Source: Opitutus sp. GAS368
GTDB taxonomy: Bacteria > Verrucomicrobiota > Verrucomicrobiia > Opitutales > Opitutaceae
Assembly (NCBI GenBank): GCA_945903545.1
Contig: CAMDOO010000018.1
Span: 1 to 45,034 of the forward strand
Length of the DNA stretch: 45,034 nt
Direction: 5' to 3'
The translations under genes and the position numbers were made by a program. This document shows, in pieces, positions 21,235-45,034 of this stretch (positions within the stretch are counted from its first letter, which is position 1; every line of letters begins with the position of its first letter). The notes beneath the pieces are model-generated. The model worked only from the letters and a program-made list of their open reading frames with translations, searched no databases and was not told where the DNA came from.

Positions 21235-21304
21235 GTAGGGGCGTGTGTCCCCACACGCCCTTGATCTGACCGAGCCAGGACGCGTGGGGACACGCGTCCC
21301 CACC
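21235..21304. repeat. GTAG palindrome, family G
   Basis: Begins GTAGGGGCGTGTGTCCCCAC. The first half forms a hairpin GGCGTGTG/ACACGCC and the second GGACGCGTG/CACGCGTCC, with the far end decayed from CTAC to CACC. It lies between the convergent KLKP protein and dusB. Confidence 0.7.
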
Positions 21305-29807: not shown

Positions 29808-29828
29808 TGCGGGGTTGACCCCGAAACT

Positions 29829-29885
29829 GTAGGAGCGGGTTTACCCCGCGATGGATCGGAAGATCGCGGCGTAAAGCCGCTCCTA
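29829..29885. repeat. REPIN family A copy 1, downstream flank of the RAYT gene
   Basis: Begins GTAGGAGCGGGTTTACCCCG and ends GCCGCTCCTA. Two inverted hairpins (GCGGG-loop-CCCGC and GCGGC-loop-GCCGC) form the element. Its last CTA is the complement of the TAG stop codon of the RAYT gene. Confidence 0.88.
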
Positions 29886-30401
29886 TATTCCGAGCCATTC
29901 CGGAAATGGACAATCGGAGTTTGTGAGCGGGCCAAACCAAGCCCAGTCCAACGGTGCGCAGTAGTAGCCGGGCCATTTTGTGTCCGCGGTGAGCAACTTT
30001 GCCCGGTCAGGATTGAGGAAAATGTAGAGAAAGACAGGGAAGCGATCCTCGGCTGGCCTTATGCGATGATCGAAGTAGCCGCGCTGCCACGATAGGCCGC
30101 TGCGACGCAGGACAGGTGTCAAAGGACCCTTCCAGTTTCGAATGACGGAGGACAATGGGACGTCGACTCCCAAGGTGATGAGCAGGTGGATGTGATCCGG
30201 CATCACGACCATGCATCGAATCAACCAATTGCCAGTGGTCTCAATCTTCATGCTGTGGGCCAGGAGGGCGGTCGTGATCTCTGCCTGTTGCAGGCCGGAC
30301 CTCCGATCGTTGGTGCAGACTGTAAGGAAGTAATCACACCCTGGTGCTGACCAACGATGACGCCGCAATGCTTCGTGCCCTCGTCCAAATGTATGACTCA
30401 T
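29883..30401 (-). mobile_element. RAYT: REP-associated tyrosine transposase (Y1/IS200-like)
   Basis: A 172-residue single-domain HUH transposase. The metal-binding motif is H70-I-H72 in VVMPDHIHLLITL, WQRGYFDHRIR precedes the catalytic helix, and the likely nucleophile is Tyr126 in YIFLNPDRAKL. RAYTs are domesticated relatives of IS200 enzymes that cleave REP sequences at a GTAG-type tetranucleotide. This gene is bracketed by family A palindromes at 29829, 30408 and 30553, five bases or fewer from its coding ends on both sides, and further copies lie across the window. All catalytic residues I can check are intact. The surrounding DNA is visibly less G+C-rich than its neighbours, suggesting later arrival. 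No separate terminal repeats of an insertion sequence were seen. Confidence 0.92.
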
Positions 30402-30407
30402 GTTTTG

Positions 30408-30465
30408 GCAGGAGCGATTTCACGCCGTGATGGATGGCAAACTCGCGGGATAAACCCGCTCCTAC
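30408..30465. repeat. REPIN family A copy 2, six bases before the RAYT start
   Basis: The right half is intact (ends CGGGATAAACCCGCTCCTAC); the left half is decayed (GCAGGAGCGATTTCACGCCG). It lies six bases upstream of the RAYT ATG on the minus strand, so it forms most of the gene's leader. Confidence 0.85.
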
Positions 30466-30552
30466 AGGGGTAGAACGCAGATTTCGGCGGAATCTTTCAC
30501 TAAAAGTGAGCGCCTGCTTCGATTTTTAGGGAATGACCGTCCCAGTCCTCCT

Positions 30553-30610
30553 GTAGGAGCGGGTTTATCCCGCGATGGATCGGGAGATCGCGGCGTAAAG
30601 CCGCTCCTAC
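30553..30610. repeat. REPIN family A copy 3
   Basis: Near-perfect copy beginning GTAGGAGCGGGTTTATCCCG and ending AAAGCCGCTCCTAC. It lies one base from the TGA stop of the methyltransferase gene on the minus strand. The 87 bases between copies 2 and 3 show nothing else. Confidence 0.88.
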
Positions 30611-30611
30611 A

Positions 30612-31433
30612 TCAGGGCTTCCGCCGCAGCGCGAAACGCAGGTAAACCGCCCGGCCCGCAGCGAGCCCGGCGTAGGTCGAGCTCTCGGTCGTGCCGCCGA
30701 AATAGTGGGCCACCTTTCGGAACGGACGTGGTACGCTGCTCTGGATCATCTCGTCGCGTCGGGCGCCATCGGCCCGCATCGCGGCCAGCACGCCGGCGGT
30801 GAGATCCTCCTCGGCCAGAAGGACAAAATCGGAGGTGGCGATGGCCTCCTGGAATTTTCCAAGGGCATGGGCGGCATCCGGTCGGCGGTAGAAGAAGTCC
30901 GCGACGAGCAGCGTGCCGCCGGAGGCGAGCACCCGCGCCATTTCGCGCAGGAACGCAGGCTTGTCCGGCACGCAGTGGGTAAGCTCGACACAGATGACCG
31001 CGTCGAAGGATGCCGCCGGGAAGGGCGTGTGCAGCGCGTCGCCGGCCAGAAACTCGAGCCCGGGCCGGCTGAAGTGGCGCTGGCACCACCGCGCCGAGGC
31101 CCCGGCGTAATCGAGCCCAACCATCCGGCTCGGCCGGAAATGCTCGTGCAGAAAACTGCATCCACCGCCACGCCCGGCGCCCACCTCAAGCACTTGCCGG
31201 TCTGCGAGCGGTGTGTCACCGACGACCCGGAGATAAAGCGCCCGGTTCAGTTCCTCGTTGGCGAGGGAGGAGGGCAGGGGGGCGTCCGGCGGGGTCCAGC
31301 CGCAGTTCATCATCCGCCAGTGACGCTGACCGCGGAAGGCGAAGCCGATCGAGTTGTAGAAGAGCCGGCGGAACCAAGGCCGGCGCCAGAGCCAGGTGAA
31401 CAGGCGCTGGAGCGGCGATTTGGTGGCGGCCAT
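30612..31433 (-). CDS. Class I SAM-dependent methyltransferase
   Basis: A 273-residue methyltransferase. Motif I is VLEVGAGRGGGCSFL, followed by the acidic end of strand 2 (VGLDYA), motif II near FDAVICVELTHCV, and LASGGTLLVADFFYR. The N-terminus (LYRR-like WLWRRPWFRRLFYNSIGFAF) is basic and amphipathic, suggesting membrane contact. It resembles the methyltransferases acting on long-chain or polyketide lipids (phthiotriolone type), but the substrate is not deducible. The start at 31433 is used because the longer frame would translate the neighbouring palindromes. A family A REPIN abuts its stop. Confidence 0.8.
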   Translation of the reverse strand: MAATKSPLQRLFTWLWRRPWFRRLFYNSIGFAFRGQRHWRMMNCGWTPPDAPLPSSLANEELNRALYLRVVGDTPLADRQVLEVGAGRGGGCSFLHEHFRPSRMVGLDYAGASARWCQRHFSRPGLEFLAGDALHTPFPAASFDAVICVELTHCVPDKPAFLREMARVLASGGTLLVADFFYRRPDAAHALGKFQEAIATSDFVLLAEEDLTAGVLAAMRADGARRDEMIQSSVPRPFRKVAHYFGGTTESSTYAGLAAGRAVYLRFALRRKP

Positions 31434-31500
31434 GGGAGCCGGGGTATCAGGAGCCGATTGCTCCGCGAGTTTTATCGGCGAGGAATGGCCTTCCGAATCG

Positions 31501-31640
31501 GTAGGGCGGCGATTCCGCTCGCCGCCGGGACCGCAGGTAGGGCTGGGTCGACGACCCGGCCGGGATCCCTCATCGCGGTCGCTTCGTCGAGGCAACCCTA
31601 CCTCGAACTGGCCCGGCGCGGATCGGAGTCCGCGCCCTAC
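31501..31640. repeat. REPIN family B copy 1 with another element nested in its loop
   Basis: The outer arms are GTAGGGCGGCGATTCCGCTC (hairpin GGCGGCGA/TCGCCGCC) and the terminal hairpin GGCGCGGA/TCCGCGCC followed by CTAC (31637-31640). Between them sits a complete second GTAG...CTAC element at 31537-31601. The rest of the 31434-31823 gap shows no further feature. Confidence 0.82.
31537..31601. repeat. REPIN family C, nested inside family B copy 1
   Basis: Begins GTAGGGCTGGGTCGACGACC (hairpin GCTGGGTC/GACCCGGC) and ends GGCAACCCTAC. The right half is a weaker hairpin (GTCGC/GCAAC with a wobble pair). It lies wholly inside the loop of 31501-31640. Confidence 0.7.
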
Positions 31641-31823
31641 CGTGGGGCCTTGGGATCAAGGCCATACGTTCATCCCCCCGTCGCGCTTTTTGCGCGTGCA
31701 ACGTTCCTGCATTGGCTTCGTCTTAACGGCACTCTCGGTGTCGCCCCCCCCCTCGACCACCGCCGTTTGACCCCGTTCCTGCACCCGTTCTCCCGCCTGG
31801 TCTCCTTCACTTTCATCGGTGAT

Positions 31824-34697
31824 GTGGCTCGGCGGAGCCTCGGCGGCTCACTGCGTAAAGCGGCCGCCTGGCTGCTCGCCGCCTGTGCCGCGGGCCCGCT
31901 GCATGCGGAGTCCACCACCTCGGTTCCCACGACGGCCGGCTCGGGCGTTACGATGCGCATCGCGACGCCGGTCTCGGTCCTTCCGCGCTTTGGCTTCCTC
32001 CCGATCCGGGTCCTGATCGACAACCACTCGGAGCGGGCGGGCACCTGGCAGATCCGGTTCGAGGGCGGGGAGTCCGCCTCCGCCTCGGGCGCGATCAAGA
32101 GCCGGATGACCGTGACGGCCGCGGCCGGGGAGAAGAAGGAAGCCTGGTTCTTTGTACCCCTCGCGGAGGCCGCACCCTCGTTCACCCTGGGTGCGACACC
32201 CCCGCCGCCGGCGGCCACCAACGCGGCGATCCGTGGACGCACGCCCACCCTCGCCACCATCGGTGCTTCGACCACGACCGCCGGGGTGGAAACCCGCGCC
32301 CGGACCAAGCTCATTGTCGGCGTCCCCGCGGCCAGCGGCGCCGGCGGCTGGAAGTGGACCTCGCGCCTGGAGCCGGGCAACAGGCCCGGCGAAAACATCG
32401 GCATCGCGACCGCGCTCCAGTCGATCAGCTTCAACGAGTCCCCGCTGACGGGGAAGGATCTGCCGCTGGGCTTCGACGTCGTCGATCGCATCGATCCGGT
32501 CACCCGCTGGGCCGAGCGCCATTTTATCTACAAGGAGACGCTACCCGACCCGTCGGGCGAGTCGGCACCGAAATCCTCGGCCTTCAGCACCCTGAGTTCC
32601 TCCCTGACCGCGGAATCAGCTGCGCGCGCGGCCTTGGAAGCCAGCGGACTCCTGCAGGCGCCTTCAGGTGTGACGCAAACCGTGTCGGTCTCGCCGCTGT
32701 ATTCCGGCCGCTCCGGCGGACAGGTGGCGTGGCTCACGACGTTCATCCAAACCGGCAGTTCGCGTGTGCTGCCCGTGCAGAGCGGACTCGCAGTGCCGCC
32801 GGGAACGGTGATCAACCTGCACGCCTCCGCCCAACCCGGCGAGGTGGTGCGCAGCGTCACGTTTGTCGAACCCGACGCCCTGGTCGGCCTCGAGGGAAAA
32901 TCCGCGCCCGGCACCGCCACCGATCCCGAGGTCGCGGCGGCGGCAGCCCAGTCGATCCTGATGCGTTATGGCTACCTTCGCCCCCAGCCGGACGTGGAGG
33001 TTTCGCGCACGCTGCCCGGCCAATCAAATTTCACCCTGCCGGCACTGCACGCCGGGGCCACGCTGTGGTTCGAGTCCGGCCCGAAGGCGCTCCTGCCCGC
33101 GCCGATCTTCGGCACCCTGCCACCCAACACTGTGGCCTACCTGCTGTCCGGGCCGACGCCGGACCAGGTGATCCGCTGCTTTGCCGTCGGTCCTCCCGTG
33201 AAATTCGCGGCCCCGTCGACCGCAGCCGGCGGCGCCTCCGGCGGAGCCGCGGCGGCGCTGAGCATCCAGGTCACCGGCCCGGGGATCCTGGGCGCGGCTG
33301 ACGTTTCCTTCGCCGGCCTGATTCCCGCCACCGCCAGCCTGGCGCCACCGCTCGCGATCACGCAGCCGCTCACGGCGAAATTCCGGCAGATCCTCTACAA
33401 CGGCAGCCTGCGCGGCCTGCCGAATCTCAACGCCGTCGACACCGTTTCGCTCCCGGCGGACTGGCGGATGTGGTCGCCCTTCCACGGTGTGCTCGTCACC
33501 CAGGCCGAGTACGAGAGCCTCGATGCCGCTCGCCGCGCCGCGCTTCGCAGCTGGGTGATGCAGGGCGGGTTTCTCTTTCTGGAGCCGACGGTGACCGGTC
33601 CGCTGGTGGGCGTGCCCTTGCAGCAGTCCCGGCTCGGCAATGGCATGATCACCACGCTGCCGTGGACCGTGGACGACTATCTTGCCCCGCCCGTCATCAA
33701 CGAGGCCGGTACCGAGTACGTAAAGGTGGCCAAGCCGGAGGAACTGATTCCCCTGCTCCAGCTCCACGCGCTCGCCCTCAGCCTGCCGGCGGGGGATTCG
33801 CTGCGCCCGGCGCCGCTCTCGAAGGAAACGCCCCGGCGCGGCGTGACAGTTGCCGACAAGGGCAGGTGGGCCGTTGGCATTCTCGTGGGTTTCGCGATCC
33901 TGGCCGGGCCCCTAAACCTGCTCCGCCTCGCTCCTTCCGGCAGACGTCACCGCCTGTTTTTCACCACCCCGCTGCTCGCCTTCGTTTTCACCGCCTGCCT
34001 CGGCGGCGTGGTGGTGGGGAGCGGCGGTTTCGGCGGGGACGGTGACCGCCACGCGGTGGTGGTGCTGCTCCCCTCTGAAGGCCGGGCCGTCGTCTATCAG
34101 GACCAGGTCTCGACGACCGGAATGCTCGGGCGCCGCACCTTTGCGCTCGATGACCGCACGCTCCTGACGAACCTTGCGGTTGATGAGTACGATTCCACCG
34201 GCCGGTCCTCCTATTTCGAGCGGGAGAATGGCACCGCGGGCGGCGACTGGTTCCGCAACCACTGGGGCACGGCGCAGCACCTCCGGCAGGTCTCGGCGGC
34301 GCGCGGCGGCGTGGCAGTCAAGCCGGCCTTGGGCCTGATTGCACCCTCCGTGGAATCCTCCCTCCCGGCCAAGTTGCAGGATTTCTATTATTTGGATCTG
34401 CGGAGCCAGGCGTGGACCGCCGCCGAGGTGGCCCCCGGCAAGCCGGTGACACTGACGCGCGCCACGGTCACCCAATGGCCGCCGGTCAACCCGACCGGTT
34501 CCAAGTACCTTGAGACCGTGCTCGCCGGCGCGGCTCGCATCGAGCCCGGTCGCTGGATCGCGCGCAGCGGTGGCTCGTCCTTCGCTCCCATCGAGACCTT
34601 CAAGGCTATCGCGTGGCACGACACCGTCGTGTACACCGGCGTGGCGGGCGACCGCCTGCCGGAAGTCATCGCGCCAGGGGAGGCGCCCAACGAATGA
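31824..34697 (+). CDS. Large exported, membrane-anchored protein of an ABC system, paralogue 1
   Basis: About 957 residues. A signal peptide (LRKAAAWLLAACAAGPLHAE) leads into a beta-rich N-terminal domain with FGFLPIRVLIDNHSERAG. A long extracytoplasmic body follows, then a glutamine-amidotransferase-like segment (LPADWRMWSPFHGVLVTQAE, then LRSWVMQGGFLFLEP). Two membrane helices (WAVGILVGFAILAGPLNLLR and FFTTPLLAFVFTACLGGVVV) precede a second extracytoplasmic domain. The next gene is a full-length homologue. The frame is open far upstream; I chose GTG at 31824 as the nearest start giving a normal signal peptide, a tentative choice. With the ATPase and permease that follow, it is probably a dedicated envelope component of the transporter. 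Confidence 0.75.
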   Translation: MARRSLGGSLRKAAAWLLAACAAGPLHAESTTSVPTTAGSGVTMRIATPVSVLPRFGFLPIRVLIDNHSERAGTWQIRFEGGESASASGAIKSRMTVTAAAGEKKEAWFFVPLAEAAPSFTLGATPPPPAATNAAIRGRTPTLATIGASTTTAGVETRARTKLIVGVPAASGAGGWKWTSRLEPGNRPGENIGIATALQSISFNESPLTGKDLPLGFDVVDRIDPVTRWAERHFIYKETLPDPSGESAPKSSAFSTLSSSLTAESAARAALEASGLLQAPSGVTQTVSVSPLYSGRSGGQVAWLTTFIQTGSSRVLPVQSGLAVPPGTVINLHASAQPGEVVRSVTFVEPDALVGLEGKSAPGTATDPEVAAAAAQSILMRYGYLRPQPDVEVSRTLPGQSNFTLPALHAGATLWFESGPKALLPAPIFGTLPPNTVAYLLSGPTPDQVIRCFAVGPPVKFAAPSTAAGGASGGAAAALSIQVTGPGILGAADVSFAGLIPATASLAPPLAITQPLTAKFRQILYNGSLRGLPNLNAVDTVSLPADWRMWSPFHGVLVTQAEYESLDAARRAALRSWVMQGGFLFLEPTVTGPLVGVPLQQSRLGNGMITTLPWTVDDYLAPPVINEAGTEYVKVAKPEELIPLLQLHALALSLPAGDSLRPAPLSKETPRRGVTVADKGRWAVGILVGFAILAGPLNLLRLAPSGRRHRLFFTTPLLAFVFTACLGGVVVGSGGFGGDGDRHAVVVLLPSEGRAVVYQDQVSTTGMLGRRTFALDDRTLLTNLAVDEYDSTGRSSYFERENGTAGGDWFRNHWGTAQHLRQVSAARGGVAVKPALGLIAPSVESSLPAKLQDFYYLDLRSQAWTAAEVAPGKPVTLTRATVTQWPPVNPTGSKYLETVLAGAARIEPGRWIARSGGSSFAPIETFKAIAWHDTVVYTGVAGDRLPEVIAPGEAPNE

Positions 34698-34780
34698 AAC
34701 CGCGCCTGATCTCCAACCCGGTACAAGTATACCGCAGAATCCTCGCGTACCGGGAGGAATTCTCGGCTGGGGCGCCGATC

Positions 34781-34867
34781 CTTTCCGCGGATTTCGCGGA
34801 TCGACGCGGATATTCCAGCCCAATCCGATTCAGGCATCCGCGTTCATCCGCGTTATCCGCGGGAAGG
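34781..34867. repeat. Dispersed inverted repeat between the two large paralogues
   Basis: The left arm contains CCGCGGATTTCGCGGAT and GACGCGGAT; the right arm is its approximate complement (ATCCGCGTTCATCCGCGTTA then TCCGCGG). I recognise this motif as a widespread bacterial intergenic repeat; it lacks GTAG ends. It fills much of the 34698-34900 spacer. Confidence 0.65.
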
Positions 34868-34900
34868 TTTGGGGCCCTTTGGCTGTGGCTCCGTCGATCT

Positions 34901-37324
34901 ATGGTGCTTGGCGCGCTGGCCCTTCTGGCGGGCGTGATCGCCCGCGCCGAAACCATCCGCGAGGTGACCACCACGAGCGGTTCTGGCATCACCATTCGTT
35001 TGTCGACGCCGCTGACGTACGCGCCGCACTTCGGTTTCGTACCGGTGCGCGTTGCGGTTGAGAACCATTCATCGCGCGACGGCGTCTGGACCGTGAAGGT
35101 CACTTCGGGCGAAACCGCCTCGTTCCCCGGTCGCGCGAGCGGCTCGGCTCGGATCGAAGTCTCCGCCGGAGCGACGAAGGAAAGCTGGATTTACGCGCCG
35201 ATGGCCGTGCCCGGCATCGTGGCGGCGCTCGTGCTGGATCCGAAGGTTCCCCGGGAACCGACCCCGCTCTACCCGGTGAATCCTCCGCCGCCGGCCGCGG
35301 CCACTCCGGCCACCAGCAGCGCCGCTGCAGCGGCCGCGCTGGAGGCGGCGGCCACCGCGTTGCTCGGTCCGACCAAGCTGCTCGACACCCCGTGGGGCGT
35401 GAGCGAGTCGGTCACGACCCAGAACGGCGTGGTCACCTTTGAGCAGACCGGCAACGCCCTCGTGTTGGTGCGCCCGCCCGCCGGTTCACTGCCGCCGGGC
35501 GTGGTCGTCAATCTCCACGCTGCGCTCGATCCCAGCCAGGTAGTGCGCACGATCACTTACGTCGCGCCGGAAACCCTGGCCGCCGTCAACGCGGCCCTGA
35601 CCTCCCGTGCCGATGCGTACCGGAAGGCGGTCAGCCGCAATCAGCTTTCGCTCTGGCGCTACGGCTACCTGCGTCGGAGTGGCGTGGTGCAGCCTTCCCT
35701 GGCCACGAGCTTTGCCGACCGCGACGGCGTCGTGACCACCTCCGTCACCGAGACCGGTCCCTCGACGCTGCTGGCCCAGCCGCTGCCCGATGCGCTGCCT
35801 CCCGACACGCTCGTTTCGCTTTCCCCCGCACCGGTGCTGCCGGGCGGCGTGATCCGCAAGTTCACCGTCACGACCCTGGTCACCGCCGCCGCGACCGACG
35901 CCGCCTCCCCCGGACCTTTCTCCGCCGTGCTCGGCGCCGCGGAGCCGGGCCGGATCCTGGTGGAGGTCGCCGGGCCGGGAGTTCTGCGGCCGGTCTGGAC
36001 CGATCTTTCGGCCACGCTCAACGGCGAGATCCAGCCCATGCCGCCGATCGTCATCCCGCCGCAGATCCGGGAATCGCTGCTCGAGCGCCTGGCGCTGGGC
36101 AATCTGCGCGGCACGCCGACCGTGACTGAGATCGATCCCTCGACCCTGCCGGCCGATTGGCGCCTGTGGGCCTCGTTGCATGCGGTCGTGCTGCGGAAGT
36201 CGGATTACATGAAGCTCGCAGCCGAGCACCGCGTCGCGCTCCGCCGCTGGGTGGCCCTCGGCGGCCGTCTCGTGCTGGCCACCGATTCCGAGGAGGACGG
36301 CCAGGTCGAGCGGCTGGGCGCCGGGGCGATCGTCCCGCTGAGTGGCTTGATCGGTTACCTGCCCCCAGCCGAGATCAGCCGGCAACTCCAGCTTTCCGCG
36401 CCGTCGCTCAGCCTCCCGATCGGCGAGACGCTCGCCCGTGATCATGCCTCGATCGAGTGCTTTGGCGCCGGCGAACGCTCCGACACCCGCTGGCTGGTCT
36501 ATGTGCTCATCGGCTTCGCCGTGGTGGCGGGTCCGGTTAACCTCCTCGTCTTCGCCCCGGCCGGTCGCCGGCACCGCACCCTCGTCTCGATGCCGCTGAT
36601 CGCGCTGGTCGGCGCCGTCGTGATGGGCGCGGGTGTCGTGGCCCGCGTCGGCCTCGGCGGCGAGGGCGTGCGCAGCAGCGTGGTCGCACTTGCGCCCGAG
36701 GATGGCGGGGCGGCGGTTTTTCAGGACCAAGTCTCGCGCACCGGAATCCTGCTGTCGCGGCGCTTCGACCTGCCGGACGACACCGTGATGGCCGCGGCCT
36801 CGCTCGATGCCGGCGGCGCCCAGGTGGGCGGTGCGGAACTCGTGCGCGAGAACGGCCAGGCCTCGGGCGACTGGTTCCGCAGCCGCAGCTTCCAGGCTTA
36901 CCAGCTCCGGCGCTTTGTCCCTGCGACCGGCAAGGTGGAGCTGACCACCCTAGCCGCCGATGGCACGCCGACCGTGACCTCGACCCTGAAGGGCACGCTG
37001 ACGGATTTCACCTGGGTTGATGACCAGGACCGGCTCTGGACCACCGCGGCGCTCGAGCCCGGCAAGGCCGTCGCACTGGCGGCGTCAAAGGACGCGGTCT
37101 GGCCGCGGCTGCAGCCCCGCGGCTCGAAGTCGCTCCGGGACATTTTTGCGGCGGCCTCCACCCGGCAGCCCGGCCGCTGGACAGCGCGCACCGGCGAGAA
37201 TGATTTCGCCCCCCTTTCGACCCTCAACTCCATTCGCTGGCAGGATGGCGAAGTCCTCGTCACCGGACTCGCGATCGCCAAAGCTTGGAGCCAGCCCCCC
37301 GCGGAAATCCCTCCCACCCCATGA
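34901..37324 (+). CDS. Large exported, membrane-anchored protein of an ABC system, paralogue 2
   Basis: An 807-residue homologue of the previous protein. Its signal peptide MVLGALALLAGVIARAE leads into SGSGITIRLSTPL and FGFVPVRVAVENHSSRDG, matching paralogue 1. The amidotransferase-like segment is LPADWRLWASLHAVVLRKSD then LRRWVALGGRLVLATD, with no catalytic Cys in the expected nucleophile position that I can see. The two membrane helices are WLVYVLIGFAVVAGPVNLLV and VSMPLIALVGAVVMGAGVVA. The start at 34901 is used because upstream sequence is the dispersed repeat. Its TGA overlaps the ATG of the ATPase gene (ATGA), so translation is coupled. It is about 150 residues shorter than paralogue 1, mostly in the middle. 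Confidence 0.8.
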   Translation: MVLGALALLAGVIARAETIREVTTTSGSGITIRLSTPLTYAPHFGFVPVRVAVENHSSRDGVWTVKVTSGETASFPGRASGSARIEVSAGATKESWIYAPMAVPGIVAALVLDPKVPREPTPLYPVNPPPPAAATPATSSAAAAAALEAAATALLGPTKLLDTPWGVSESVTTQNGVVTFEQTGNALVLVRPPAGSLPPGVVVNLHAALDPSQVVRTITYVAPETLAAVNAALTSRADAYRKAVSRNQLSLWRYGYLRRSGVVQPSLATSFADRDGVVTTSVTETGPSTLLAQPLPDALPPDTLVSLSPAPVLPGGVIRKFTVTTLVTAAATDAASPGPFSAVLGAAEPGRILVEVAGPGVLRPVWTDLSATLNGEIQPMPPIVIPPQIRESLLERLALGNLRGTPTVTEIDPSTLPADWRLWASLHAVVLRKSDYMKLAAEHRVALRRWVALGGRLVLATDSEEDGQVERLGAGAIVPLSGLIGYLPPAEISRQLQLSAPSLSLPIGETLARDHASIECFGAGERSDTRWLVYVLIGFAVVAGPVNLLVFAPAGRRHRTLVSMPLIALVGAVVMGAGVVARVGLGGEGVRSSVVALAPEDGGAAVFQDQVSRTGILLSRRFDLPDDTVMAAASLDAGGAQVGGAELVRENGQASGDWFRSRSFQAYQLRRFVPATGKVELTTLAADGTPTVTSTLKGTLTDFTWVDDQDRLWTTAALEPGKAVALAASKDAVWPRLQPRGSKSLRDIFAAASTRQPGRWTARTGENDFAPLSTLNSIRWQDGEVLVTGLAIAKAWSQPPAEIPPTP

Positions 37325-38306: not shown

Positions 38307-38365
38307 GTAGGAGCGGCTTTACGCCGCGATTCCCTCGGCCATTCGCGGGGTAAACCCGCTCCTAC
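38307..38365. repeat. REPIN family A copy 4
   Basis: Begins GTAGGAGCGGCTTTACGCCG and ends GTAAACCCGCTCCTAC, opposite in orientation to copies 1-3 in its hairpin order. It lies inside the ABC operon, between the ATPase stop (38301) and the permease start (38402). Confidence 0.88.
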
Positions 38366-43206: not shown

Positions 43207-43320
43207 GGGGGGCGATCCTTCGGAACTTCAGGGACAAGACAACCGTTGATGTCAGGAAAAATTGCGCATTTTTTGAACAGATTTCCAGCAAGCCGGGGCC
43301 GTGTCGTGGGCCTTATTCCG

Positions 43321-43443
43321 GTAGGGCGGCGACTCCGCTCGCCGCCGGGTGTAGTCGGGGTGCCCTCACCCCGAATGGATCTTCTCCGGGTGAAGGCACC
43401 CGGACTACATTCGATTACGGCGCGGACGGAGTCCACGCCCTAC
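43321..43443. repeat. REPIN family B copy 2 with another element nested in its loop
   Basis: The left arm GTAGGGCGGCGACTCCGCTC matches family B copy 1. The right arm GGCGCGGACGGAGTCCACGC ends CCCTAC at 43443. A complete family D element sits between the arms at 43351-43408. Confidence 0.82.
43351..43408. repeat. REPIN family D, nested inside family B copy 2
   Basis: Begins GTAGTCGGGGTGCCCTCACC (hairpin GGGGTG/CACCCC) and ends GGGTGAAGGCACCCGGACTAC in inverse orientation. Both halves are hairpins. It occupies the loop of 43321-43443. Confidence 0.8.
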
Positions 43444-43469
43444 CACGGCAGAATCCGGATCGGACTGCC

Positions 43470-43578: not shown

Positions 43579-43637
43579 GTAGGAGCGGGTTTATCCCGCG
43601 AATGATCGCCGGAATCGCGGCGTAAAGCCGCTCCTAC
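43579..43637. repeat. REPIN family A copy 5
   Basis: Begins GTAGGAGCGGGTTTATCCCG and ends AAAGCCGCTCCTAC, nearly identical to copy 3. It lies upstream of pnuC. Confidence 0.88.
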
Positions 43638-44442: not shown

Positions 44443-44994
44443 ATGCCTGATCCCATTCGCATCGCCGTCTTCGGCACCGAGTCCACCGGCAAGACCACCT
44501 TGGCCGAGCGACTGGCGGCGCATTTCCGCGCGGCGTGGTCGCCGGAGTTCGTCCGGGAGTTTTGGGAAATCAAGTCGGGCAAGATTGTCGGCGCCGACCT
44601 GGGCACGATCGCGCTCGGCCAGATGGCCAACGAGGACCGGGCCGACGACGCGGCGCAGCGCGTGGTGTTCCATGACACCGAATTGATCACCAACACGCTG
44701 TGGGCCGATGTGCTGTTTCCCGGCGAGTGTCCCGACTGGATCCGGGCCGAGGCCGCGGCGCGAAGCGGGCGTTATGCGCTTTATCTGCTCTGCGGGACCG
44801 ATGTGCCTTTTGAGCCCGATCCCCAGCGGTGTTTTCCGGCAGCGACGGACCGGGAGAAGGCGGGGCGCTTGTGGCGCGAGACCCTGAAGCAGCGCGGTCT
44901 GCCCTTCGTGGAGATCCGCGGCGGCTGGGCCGAGCGCGAGGCCGCGGCGATTGCGGCGGTGGAGGGGATCCTGAGTCGACGGGATACTTTGTAG
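44443..44994 (+). CDS. Nicotinamide riboside kinase, NadR C-terminal type
   Basis: A 183-residue P-loop kinase like the C-terminal domain of NadR. It has Walker A GTESTGKTT (11-19), WSPEFVREFWE, and FHDTELITNTLWADVLF with the catalytic-site Asp-Thr-Glu. It would phosphorylate nicotinamide riboside to NMN and so trap what PnuC lets in. The transcriptional-repressor and adenylyltransferase parts of full NadR are absent. It is the second gene of a two-gene NAD salvage operon. The TAG stop (44992-44994) is the TAG of a family A element's GTAG. Confidence 0.88.
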   Translation: MPDPIRIAVFGTESTGKTTLAERLAAHFRAAWSPEFVREFWEIKSGKIVGADLGTIALGQMANEDRADDAAQRVVFHDTELITNTLWADVLFPGECPDWIRAEAAARSGRYALYLLCGTDVPFEPDPQRCFPAATDREKAGRLWRETLKQRGLPFVEIRGGWAEREAAAIAAVEGILSRRDTL

Positions 44995-45034
44995 GAGCGG
45001 CTTTACGCCGCGATCGATCCAATCTCGCGGCGTA
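44991..45034. repeat. REPIN family A copy 6, cut by window end
   Basis: Begins GTAGGAGCGGCTTTACGCCG and reads into the second half (CGCGGCGTA) where the window stops. Its first four bases contain the stop codon of the kinase gene. Confidence 0.82.

Follow-up and report, generated by a model that had tools for sequence, protein, structure and literature searches.

The system closest by repeat design to the locus described here is the group 3 REPtron Mb of Marinomonas sp. MWYL1, a bacterium of another phylum, which in the passages of PMC8266576 drawn on here likewise has a short perfect REP with a 10-nt palindrome two bases from its GTAG foot. CT is among the cleavage sites of Marinomonas Mb and its tyrosine nucleophile is Y125, against the candidate Y126 here; its loop, however, spans 4 nt instead of the 5 nt (TTTAn) found here, and whereas cleavage at CT and CA has been shown for Marinomonas Mb, the CT-GTAG context reported below comes from sequence alone. 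Within the same phylum, GTAG repeats of Opitutus terrae were published in 2013, and the cited sections of PMC3733652 describe several GTAG families in this verrucomicrobial species as well as repeat-specific REPtrons in species with several families. O. terrae resembles the present case in both respects, and furthermore in its GTGG feet, in REP feet which give their neighbours TAG stops and in the occurrence of both hetero- and homodimers; the dimers quoted for it, unlike those found here, have only 1-2 bp between the partners. In Pseudomonas fluorescens SBW25 two REPs form the mobile unit and a single-copy RAYT acts in trans, as is proposed here, and the SBW25 16-mer GTGGGAGGGGGCTTGC resembles the GTGGGAGGGGC arms of relatives considered below, whereas copies number in the hundreds (47 sites here) and the loop is other than TTTAn (PMC3116915, in the excerpts cited). 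Finally, TnpAREP/RayT of E. coli (4er8) shares with the RAYT of this study the fold, the HUH motif, the Tyr, the W-Q pair and the foot-contact positions, the identity amounting to 28% in the structural alignment with our predicted model. According to the quoted parts of PMC8266576 the E. coli protein belongs to group 2, with longer, bulged REPs, and E. coli BIMEs also combine REPs of unlike type (y-z1, y-z2).

The window, by which we mean the whole analysed stretch of 45,034 nucleotides, is contig C18 of a 3.08-Mb genome in 122 contigs (G000). A first-pass annotation had tentatively assigned it to a verrucomicrobial genome, in line with the four of ten named RAYT relatives that come from Verrucomicrobia/Opitutae records, and had contrasted it with the well-studied cases in Proteobacteria. 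That such an arrangement would be unexpected outside this group does not hold, since GTAG repeats of O. terrae and repeat-specific REPtrons are in print (PMC3733652, in the sections cited), and the kind of system is therefore not new to the phylum; among the matches listed in a literature search there were no further papers on RAYTs in Verrucomicrobia. We interpret the locus, with a probability of roughly 85%, as a REPtron, that is a single-copy RAYT/TnpAREP of the Y1 (HUH) type and the IS200/IS605 superfamily together with non-autonomous REPINs which it would move in trans. The arms of its repeats (family A) consist of GTAG, two bases, a 5-bp stem and a TTTAn loop, and two inverted 23-nt arms, usually with an 11-15-nt spacer, form a REPIN. 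Arms are either G-closed (GG-G TTTAY C-CC, G-type) or C-closed (GG-C TTTAY G-CC, C-type). The features of the window are as follows:

29883..30401, (-) strand: RAYT/TnpAREP gene, 172 aa, ATG start; HUH H70 and H72; W105, Q106, D111, H112 and R115; Tyr126 by alignment
29829..29886: REPIN at the 3' end of the RAYT gene; G-arm 29829-29851 (+), 12-nt spacer, C-arm 29864-29886 (-)
30408..30465: REPIN separated by six bases from the RAYT start codon; decayed arm 30408-30430 (+), G-arm 30443-30465 (-)
30553..30610: REPIN at a distance of 87 bases from the preceding one; G-arm 30553-30575 (+), C-arm 30588-30610 (-)
38307..38365: REPIN between two ORFs; site empty in both congeners
43579..43637: REPIN with spacer ATGATCGCCGGAA, which resembles several others of family A
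44991..45034: REPIN truncated by the contig end; the readable part of its second arm is C-type

The three REPINs around the gene, one of them holding its stop, and the copies at 38307, 43579 and 44991 had been pointed out in the first-pass annotation, and all of them were found again, the last one ending with the contig. The TAG stop of the RAYT gene (29883-29885) lies inside the mutated foot (ATAG) of the arm 29864-29886. GTAG termini often supply stops to adjacent ORFs (PMC3733652, in the sections cited), and a REP-supplied stop was discarded as a special trait of this locus, as 10 of 86 RAYT rows end on a stop provided by an intact GTAG foot (the rows contain 12 duplicates, none of them among these ten). 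The arm next to the start codon (30408-30430) carries four mismatches and a GCAG foot. Folded as single-stranded DNA, the REPIN 30408-30465 was little better than its shuffles (z -1.2), while four other REPINs reached z values of -6.7 to -7.4. On visual inspection, the REPIN at 44991-45034 continues at the end of contig C53 (L106); the two contig ends share one REPIN and are thus probably neighbours in the genome.

The RAYT ORF scored 85.9 bits against NF047646 of NCBIfam (REP-associated tyrosine transposase, cut-off 80) and matched PF01797 (Y1_Tnp) of Pfam with 37.7 bits. Its best solved relative by sequence was E. coli TnpAREP 4er8 (E 1.3e-7), which was also the top Foldseek match (E 1.4e-8, TM 0.60/0.63) of an AlphaFold2 model with a mean pLDDT of 81.4. 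The protein has HIH at 70-72, WQ at 105-106 and Tyr126, the latter aligning with E. coli RayT. In an alignment of 69 RAYTs, including that of E. coli, there is no variation at H72, W105, R115 and N130; H70 and Y126 occur in 67, Q106 in 64 and H112 in 60 sequences, and position 111 is occupied by D in 49 and by E in 19. The GTAG-contact positions named in PMC6006769 correspond to W105, Q106, D111, H112 and R115. ORF, profile and alignment thereby agree with the earlier description of an intact-looking RAYT with an HUH motif and candidate Tyr126: as judged from its sequence, the gene is intact and the predicted catalytic and GTAG-contacting residues are kept. Its WQ and Asp and the short REP agree with group 3 (subclass 2.5, with the consensus DH[LF]H, WQ, YI[VI]ANP, short REPs and D for E100), while DHIH and YIFLNP deviate; as the full set of subclass 2.5 motifs is not present, no group was assigned. 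Grouping by a tree was dropped, the branch of E. coli RayT having a length of 4.24 in a tree without a group 3 reference.

With respect to the superfamily, an autonomous IS200/IS605 insertion sequence with terminal hairpins had to be weighed against the REPtron, the more so as IS200/IS605 transposases were the next structural matches after 4er8. The gene is, however, present in a single copy with its nearest paralogue in G000 only 44% identical, the IS200 model gave 29.4 bits and thus stayed below its cut-off of 55, the neighbouring genes encode an ABC ATPase with two ABC domains and a methyltransferase and not tnpB, and the tyrosine motif is YIFLNP instead of the Y[IV]ENQ of subclass 1.1. We regard the probability of such an insertion sequence as practically negligible.

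For the REPtron, the substrate side was analysed in the whole genome. The 24-mer GTAGGAGCGG[G/C]TTTAnnCCGCGA occurs in 45 exact copies in the 3.08 Mb of G000, and the reversed control in none; for the 23-mer with up to three mismatches, 79 matches were obtained against one for the control. Pairing was determined in the window and in 40 stretches taken around the G000 matches. These contain 33 inverted pairs, 29 of them with a spacer of 11-15 nt, and 16 unpaired matches, ten of which lie at contig ends and two of which, with five mismatches, were taken as chance. Single arms are described as remnants of dimers in the quoted parts of PMC3733652, which fits the unpaired arms observed here. Of 47 repeat sites in G000, ten lie within 44 bases of a contig end, where 0.26 would be expected within 70 bases. 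When the 24 G/C pairs were oriented from G-arm to C-arm, their spacers were more alike than in 200 of 200 shuffles and in 200 of 200 random flips, indicating that the whole REPIN of ~58 bp and not the single arm was copied.

Among arms chosen by foot and loop alone, all five stem pairs were formed in 186 of 195, whereas a control loop gave 16 places, none with more than three stem pairs. G-C and C-G are both numerous at stem pairs 1, 2 and 5. Since the stretches had been fetched by patterns which name most of the stem bases, independent support comes only from the positions that the patterns did not specify: these are pair 5 in G000 (21 GCGGG/CCCGC versus 32 GCGGC/GCCGC) and, with the wider patterns used for the other genera, pairs 1 and 2. 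In 39 of 73 G000 arms the foot is immediately preceded by CT, with ~5% expected; as the copies are related, the very small p-value should not be read literally. CT is one of the dinucleotides cleaved by RAYTs characterised in vitro (PMC8266576, in the passages cited). In analogy to those enzymes, the RAYT would work on single-stranded DNA, probably the lagging-strand template, and would bind the 5-bp hairpin via the GTAG foot, whereupon Tyr126 may cut at the adjacent CT. The entire REPIN would then be removed, re-inserted or copied, while the RAYT itself would not multiply.

Family A repeats number 71 in G000, compared to 6 in G001 (92% complete) and 0 in G002 (only 75% complete), the two congeners considered. 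No match to the window RAYT was obtained in G001 at E 1e-5, where a profile search revealed one more distant RAYT, and G002 gave one match with 32% identity. The RAYT, its REPINs and the methyltransferase gene are jointly missing from the orthologous place in both congeners: G002 has ~270 bases in place of window positions 29808-31904, and G001 has 241 bases in place of 29808-34925, so that the missing part is larger in the latter. The comparison with the sister genomes covered three G000 stretches with 12 repeat sites, three of which make up the RAYT cluster; besides this cluster five sites were judged, and the remaining four had no two-sided alignment. All four REPIN sites that could be aligned on both sides (window 38307; C36 10502 and 13481; C13 35365) lack the element in at least one of the congeners, and the sister stretches contain no arms with up to five mismatches. 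For the fifth site, the unpaired arm at C36 5931, G001 contains a decayed counterpart that differs by four mismatches. Empty sites of this kind fit the mobile REPINs described in the cited excerpts of PMC3116915. Four sites of G001 were inspected in turn: one lies in DNA 88% identical to the G000 REPIN locus on C54 (G001 C361) and the REPIN is shared, while the other three match none of the G000 repeat loci compared. As this shared REPIN also occurs in a congener without such a RAYT, part of family A is older than the split, and since the sister DNA is ~73-88% identical, the insertions need not be recent and their exact junctions are unreadable. Taken together, the absent RAYT locus, the empty sites and the counts of 71 versus 6 and 0 mean that a spread of the REPIN within the genus is well supported.

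These data also bear on the notion that the hairpins are ordinary bidirectional terminators or mRNA stabilisers whose mobility is only apparent. Stable folding and the position of one tested case between two ORFs would be in keeping with such a role, but not the near-identical feet, loops and spacers at unrelated sites, and the absence from orthologous sites largely refutes it, leaving it very improbable. Regarding the REPtron, the first-pass annotation had seen the layout that an active RAYT and its substrate would be expected to show. The intact gene and the REPIN sites empty in congeners speak for this, and the support for activity is only indirect; we consider the REPtron to be real and probably active until fairly recently.

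Four other RAYTs were found in G000 by protein search (44, 38, 31 and 36% identical), and a profile search gave six RAYT matches in all. Each of the four adjoins GTAG hairpins of a different sequence, and family A surrounds the window gene; the earlier description of a RAYT with a cognate REPIN family is supported. Within 300 bases of the 86 RAYT rows, family A arms (up to two mismatches) occur at five distinct RAYTs: the window gene (L001) with 5 arms, L139 of G029 (54% identical to the window RAYT) with 3, L018, also of G029, with 2 of the GAGGGG type, one G055 locus (L041/L063) with 1 and the gammaproteobacterial L008 with 1. The clade of the window RAYT comprises 11 rows (support 100/98), and its members mostly adjoin hairpins that share the design but not the stem, GT[A/G]GGAGGGGCTTTAYGCCCC or GTAGGTCGGGCTTTACGCCCGAC; the hairpins of many more distant RAYTs have 8-9-bp stems. 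Among 76 genomes, family A (up to one mismatch) is present in 6 of 7 with a RAYT of this clade and in 14 of 69 without (p 0.001, or 0.003 with G000 left out), clade membership being taken from the fetched loci only.

The window contains further hairpins besides family A. A second GTAG family, GTAGGGCGGCGAnTCCGCTCGCCGCC, is found at 31501-31529 and 43321-43349 (+), with unlike partner arms at 31640 and 43443 (-), and resembles the hairpin adjoining the RAYT at G000 C83 (L005); window positions 43317-43445 recur at 91% in G001 C39, and once more elsewhere. The hairpin GTAGGGGCGTGTGTCCCCACACGCCC at 21235 (+), with an unlike partner arm at 21303 (-), equals one flanking the RAYT at G000 C26 (L004), and the hairpins GTAGCCGG...CCGG at 2649 and 19493 (-) are like those adjoining a RAYT of G005 (L053), with no cognate RAYT identified for them in G000.

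The first-pass annotation had tied the abundance of family A to possession of the gene. Within the genus copy number follows the gene, as the above counts document, whereas two relatives, one with no detectable RAYT and one with a broken cognate gene, are just as rich in the repeat. G019, another genus of the bacterial family (97% complete), has 90 family A arms, and no RAYT was found in it by protein search or by profile at E 1e-3 or at E 1. The 18 stretches sampled from it hold 22 pairs, mostly with 22-25-nt spacers and C/C arms. That these repeats are decaying without a RAYT was considered and rejected: the spacers of 18 of the 22 pairs (four pairs of unlike length or partner were left out) are non-random, with 0.202 compared to -0.002 for shuffled ones, and G000 spacers gave 0.265 versus -0.036 by the same treatment, so that decay is at most mild. 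G029 contains 142 family A arms, and its cognate RAYT is frameshifted near the start. In G055, which belongs to another family and has 78 arms, the best match to the window RAYT reached 63 bits; on one side of a RAYT-like row on C63 a family A pair is found at a distance of ~440 bases, another such row on C76 has a single arm ~290 bases off, and the remaining RAYT-like rows have no nearby family A arm within three mismatches. This genome has several RAYT-like matches that cover similar ranges of the profile (71-146 and 8-72), on C15, C19, C33, C34, C63, C73 and C89, in contrast to the usual single copy. G028, finally, has a RAYT of the clade and no family A; GAGGGG hairpins adjoin this RAYT, and six arms of the wider C-type pattern are present. 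Consequently, the presence of the gene is not a simple predictor of copy number in the bacterial family as a whole. As the G000 repeats are overrepresented at contig ends, an assembly gap could hide a RAYT located between REPINs, and such a gap could conceal one in G019.

The lack of a detectable RAYT in G019 and the frameshifted gene of G029, together with the REPIN common to G000 C54 and G001 C361, are what one would expect if the RAYT of the window were a bystander and family A had been spread by another, since lost RAYT, the repeats being kept by descent. The GC content of the RAYT ORF (0.559, in a window of 67%) might be added to this list, but the four other RAYTs of G000 are also low (0.556-0.625), and the composition is therefore not distinctive; for the same reason it was abandoned as a sign of transfer. 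Against a bystander stand the four of four tested G000 REPIN sites that are empty in one or both congeners, the G000 spacers, which are still alike, and the intact RAYT with all key residues. On balance we judge this explanation to be unlikely and keep to the REPtron.

A further property of the REPtron concerns the combination of its arms. Among the 33 G000 pairs 24 are G/C, 8 are C/C and one has a degenerate arm, while G/G does not occur. An excess of heterodimers was not concluded from G000 alone, because C/C REPINs seem to break the assembly, the readable partners at contig ends being C by eye. Internal pairs thus under-count C/C, and for this reason other genera were sampled, the sites being taken non-randomly from the list of G-type matches (20 of 123 in G044, 20 of 32 in G017 and 10 of 16 in G026). 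G/C was found at 19 of the 20 sites in G044, at 14 of 20 in G017 (one of them head to head) and at 7 of 10 in G026; no sampled site in these three was G/G, and the rest were without a recognised partner. One G/G pair is present among the listed G-type matches (G017 C30 88852/88879), hence the rule of unlike arms is not absolute. The arms of G019 are nearly all C-type. G/C pairing spans four sampled genera with the stems GAGCGG, GTCGGG and GAGGGG and with spacers of 4 to 25 nt, which differ between genomes (14-17 nt in G017, 4-25 nt in G044 and 4 nt in G026, as sampled, and mostly 11-15 nt in G000). Furthermore, hairpins occur on both strands at 46 RAYT loci, and at 24 of these the two strands carry different arms; the strand predicts the arm sequence by a small margin (0.80 versus 0.74 identity) that beats 500 of 500 within-locus permutations.

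The joining of a G-closed arm almost only to a C-closed one thus appears as a recurrent rule, as though recognition by a RAYT complex required an arm of either type. In the quoted sections of PMC3733652 heterodimers are preferred over homodimers in most families, with no obvious explanation, and the y-z BIMEs of E. coli are known heterodimers (PMC8266576, in the passages cited). We tentatively suggest that the REPIN may be an element whose two ends differ in function, comparable to the left and right ends of IS200/IS605, and hold this to be a doubtful proposal with the odds clearly against it. As the copies share descent, C/C is under-counted and the samples are non-random, the unlike arms are not proof of function. 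The set of pairs described here would make the puzzling preference for heterodimers testable, and the unlike arms are the part of the system worth testing.

The locus adds a cleanly laid out candidate REPtron, with empty sites within the genus, outside Proteobacteria. In its host, a genome of 3 Mb accommodates at least five RAYTs together with several families of GTAG repeats, and the related genomes provide natural contrasts, as they hold the repeat without the gene, with a broken gene or with an intact one. These contrasts may be useful for learning how long REPINs outlive their RAYT and why their arms are so often unlike.
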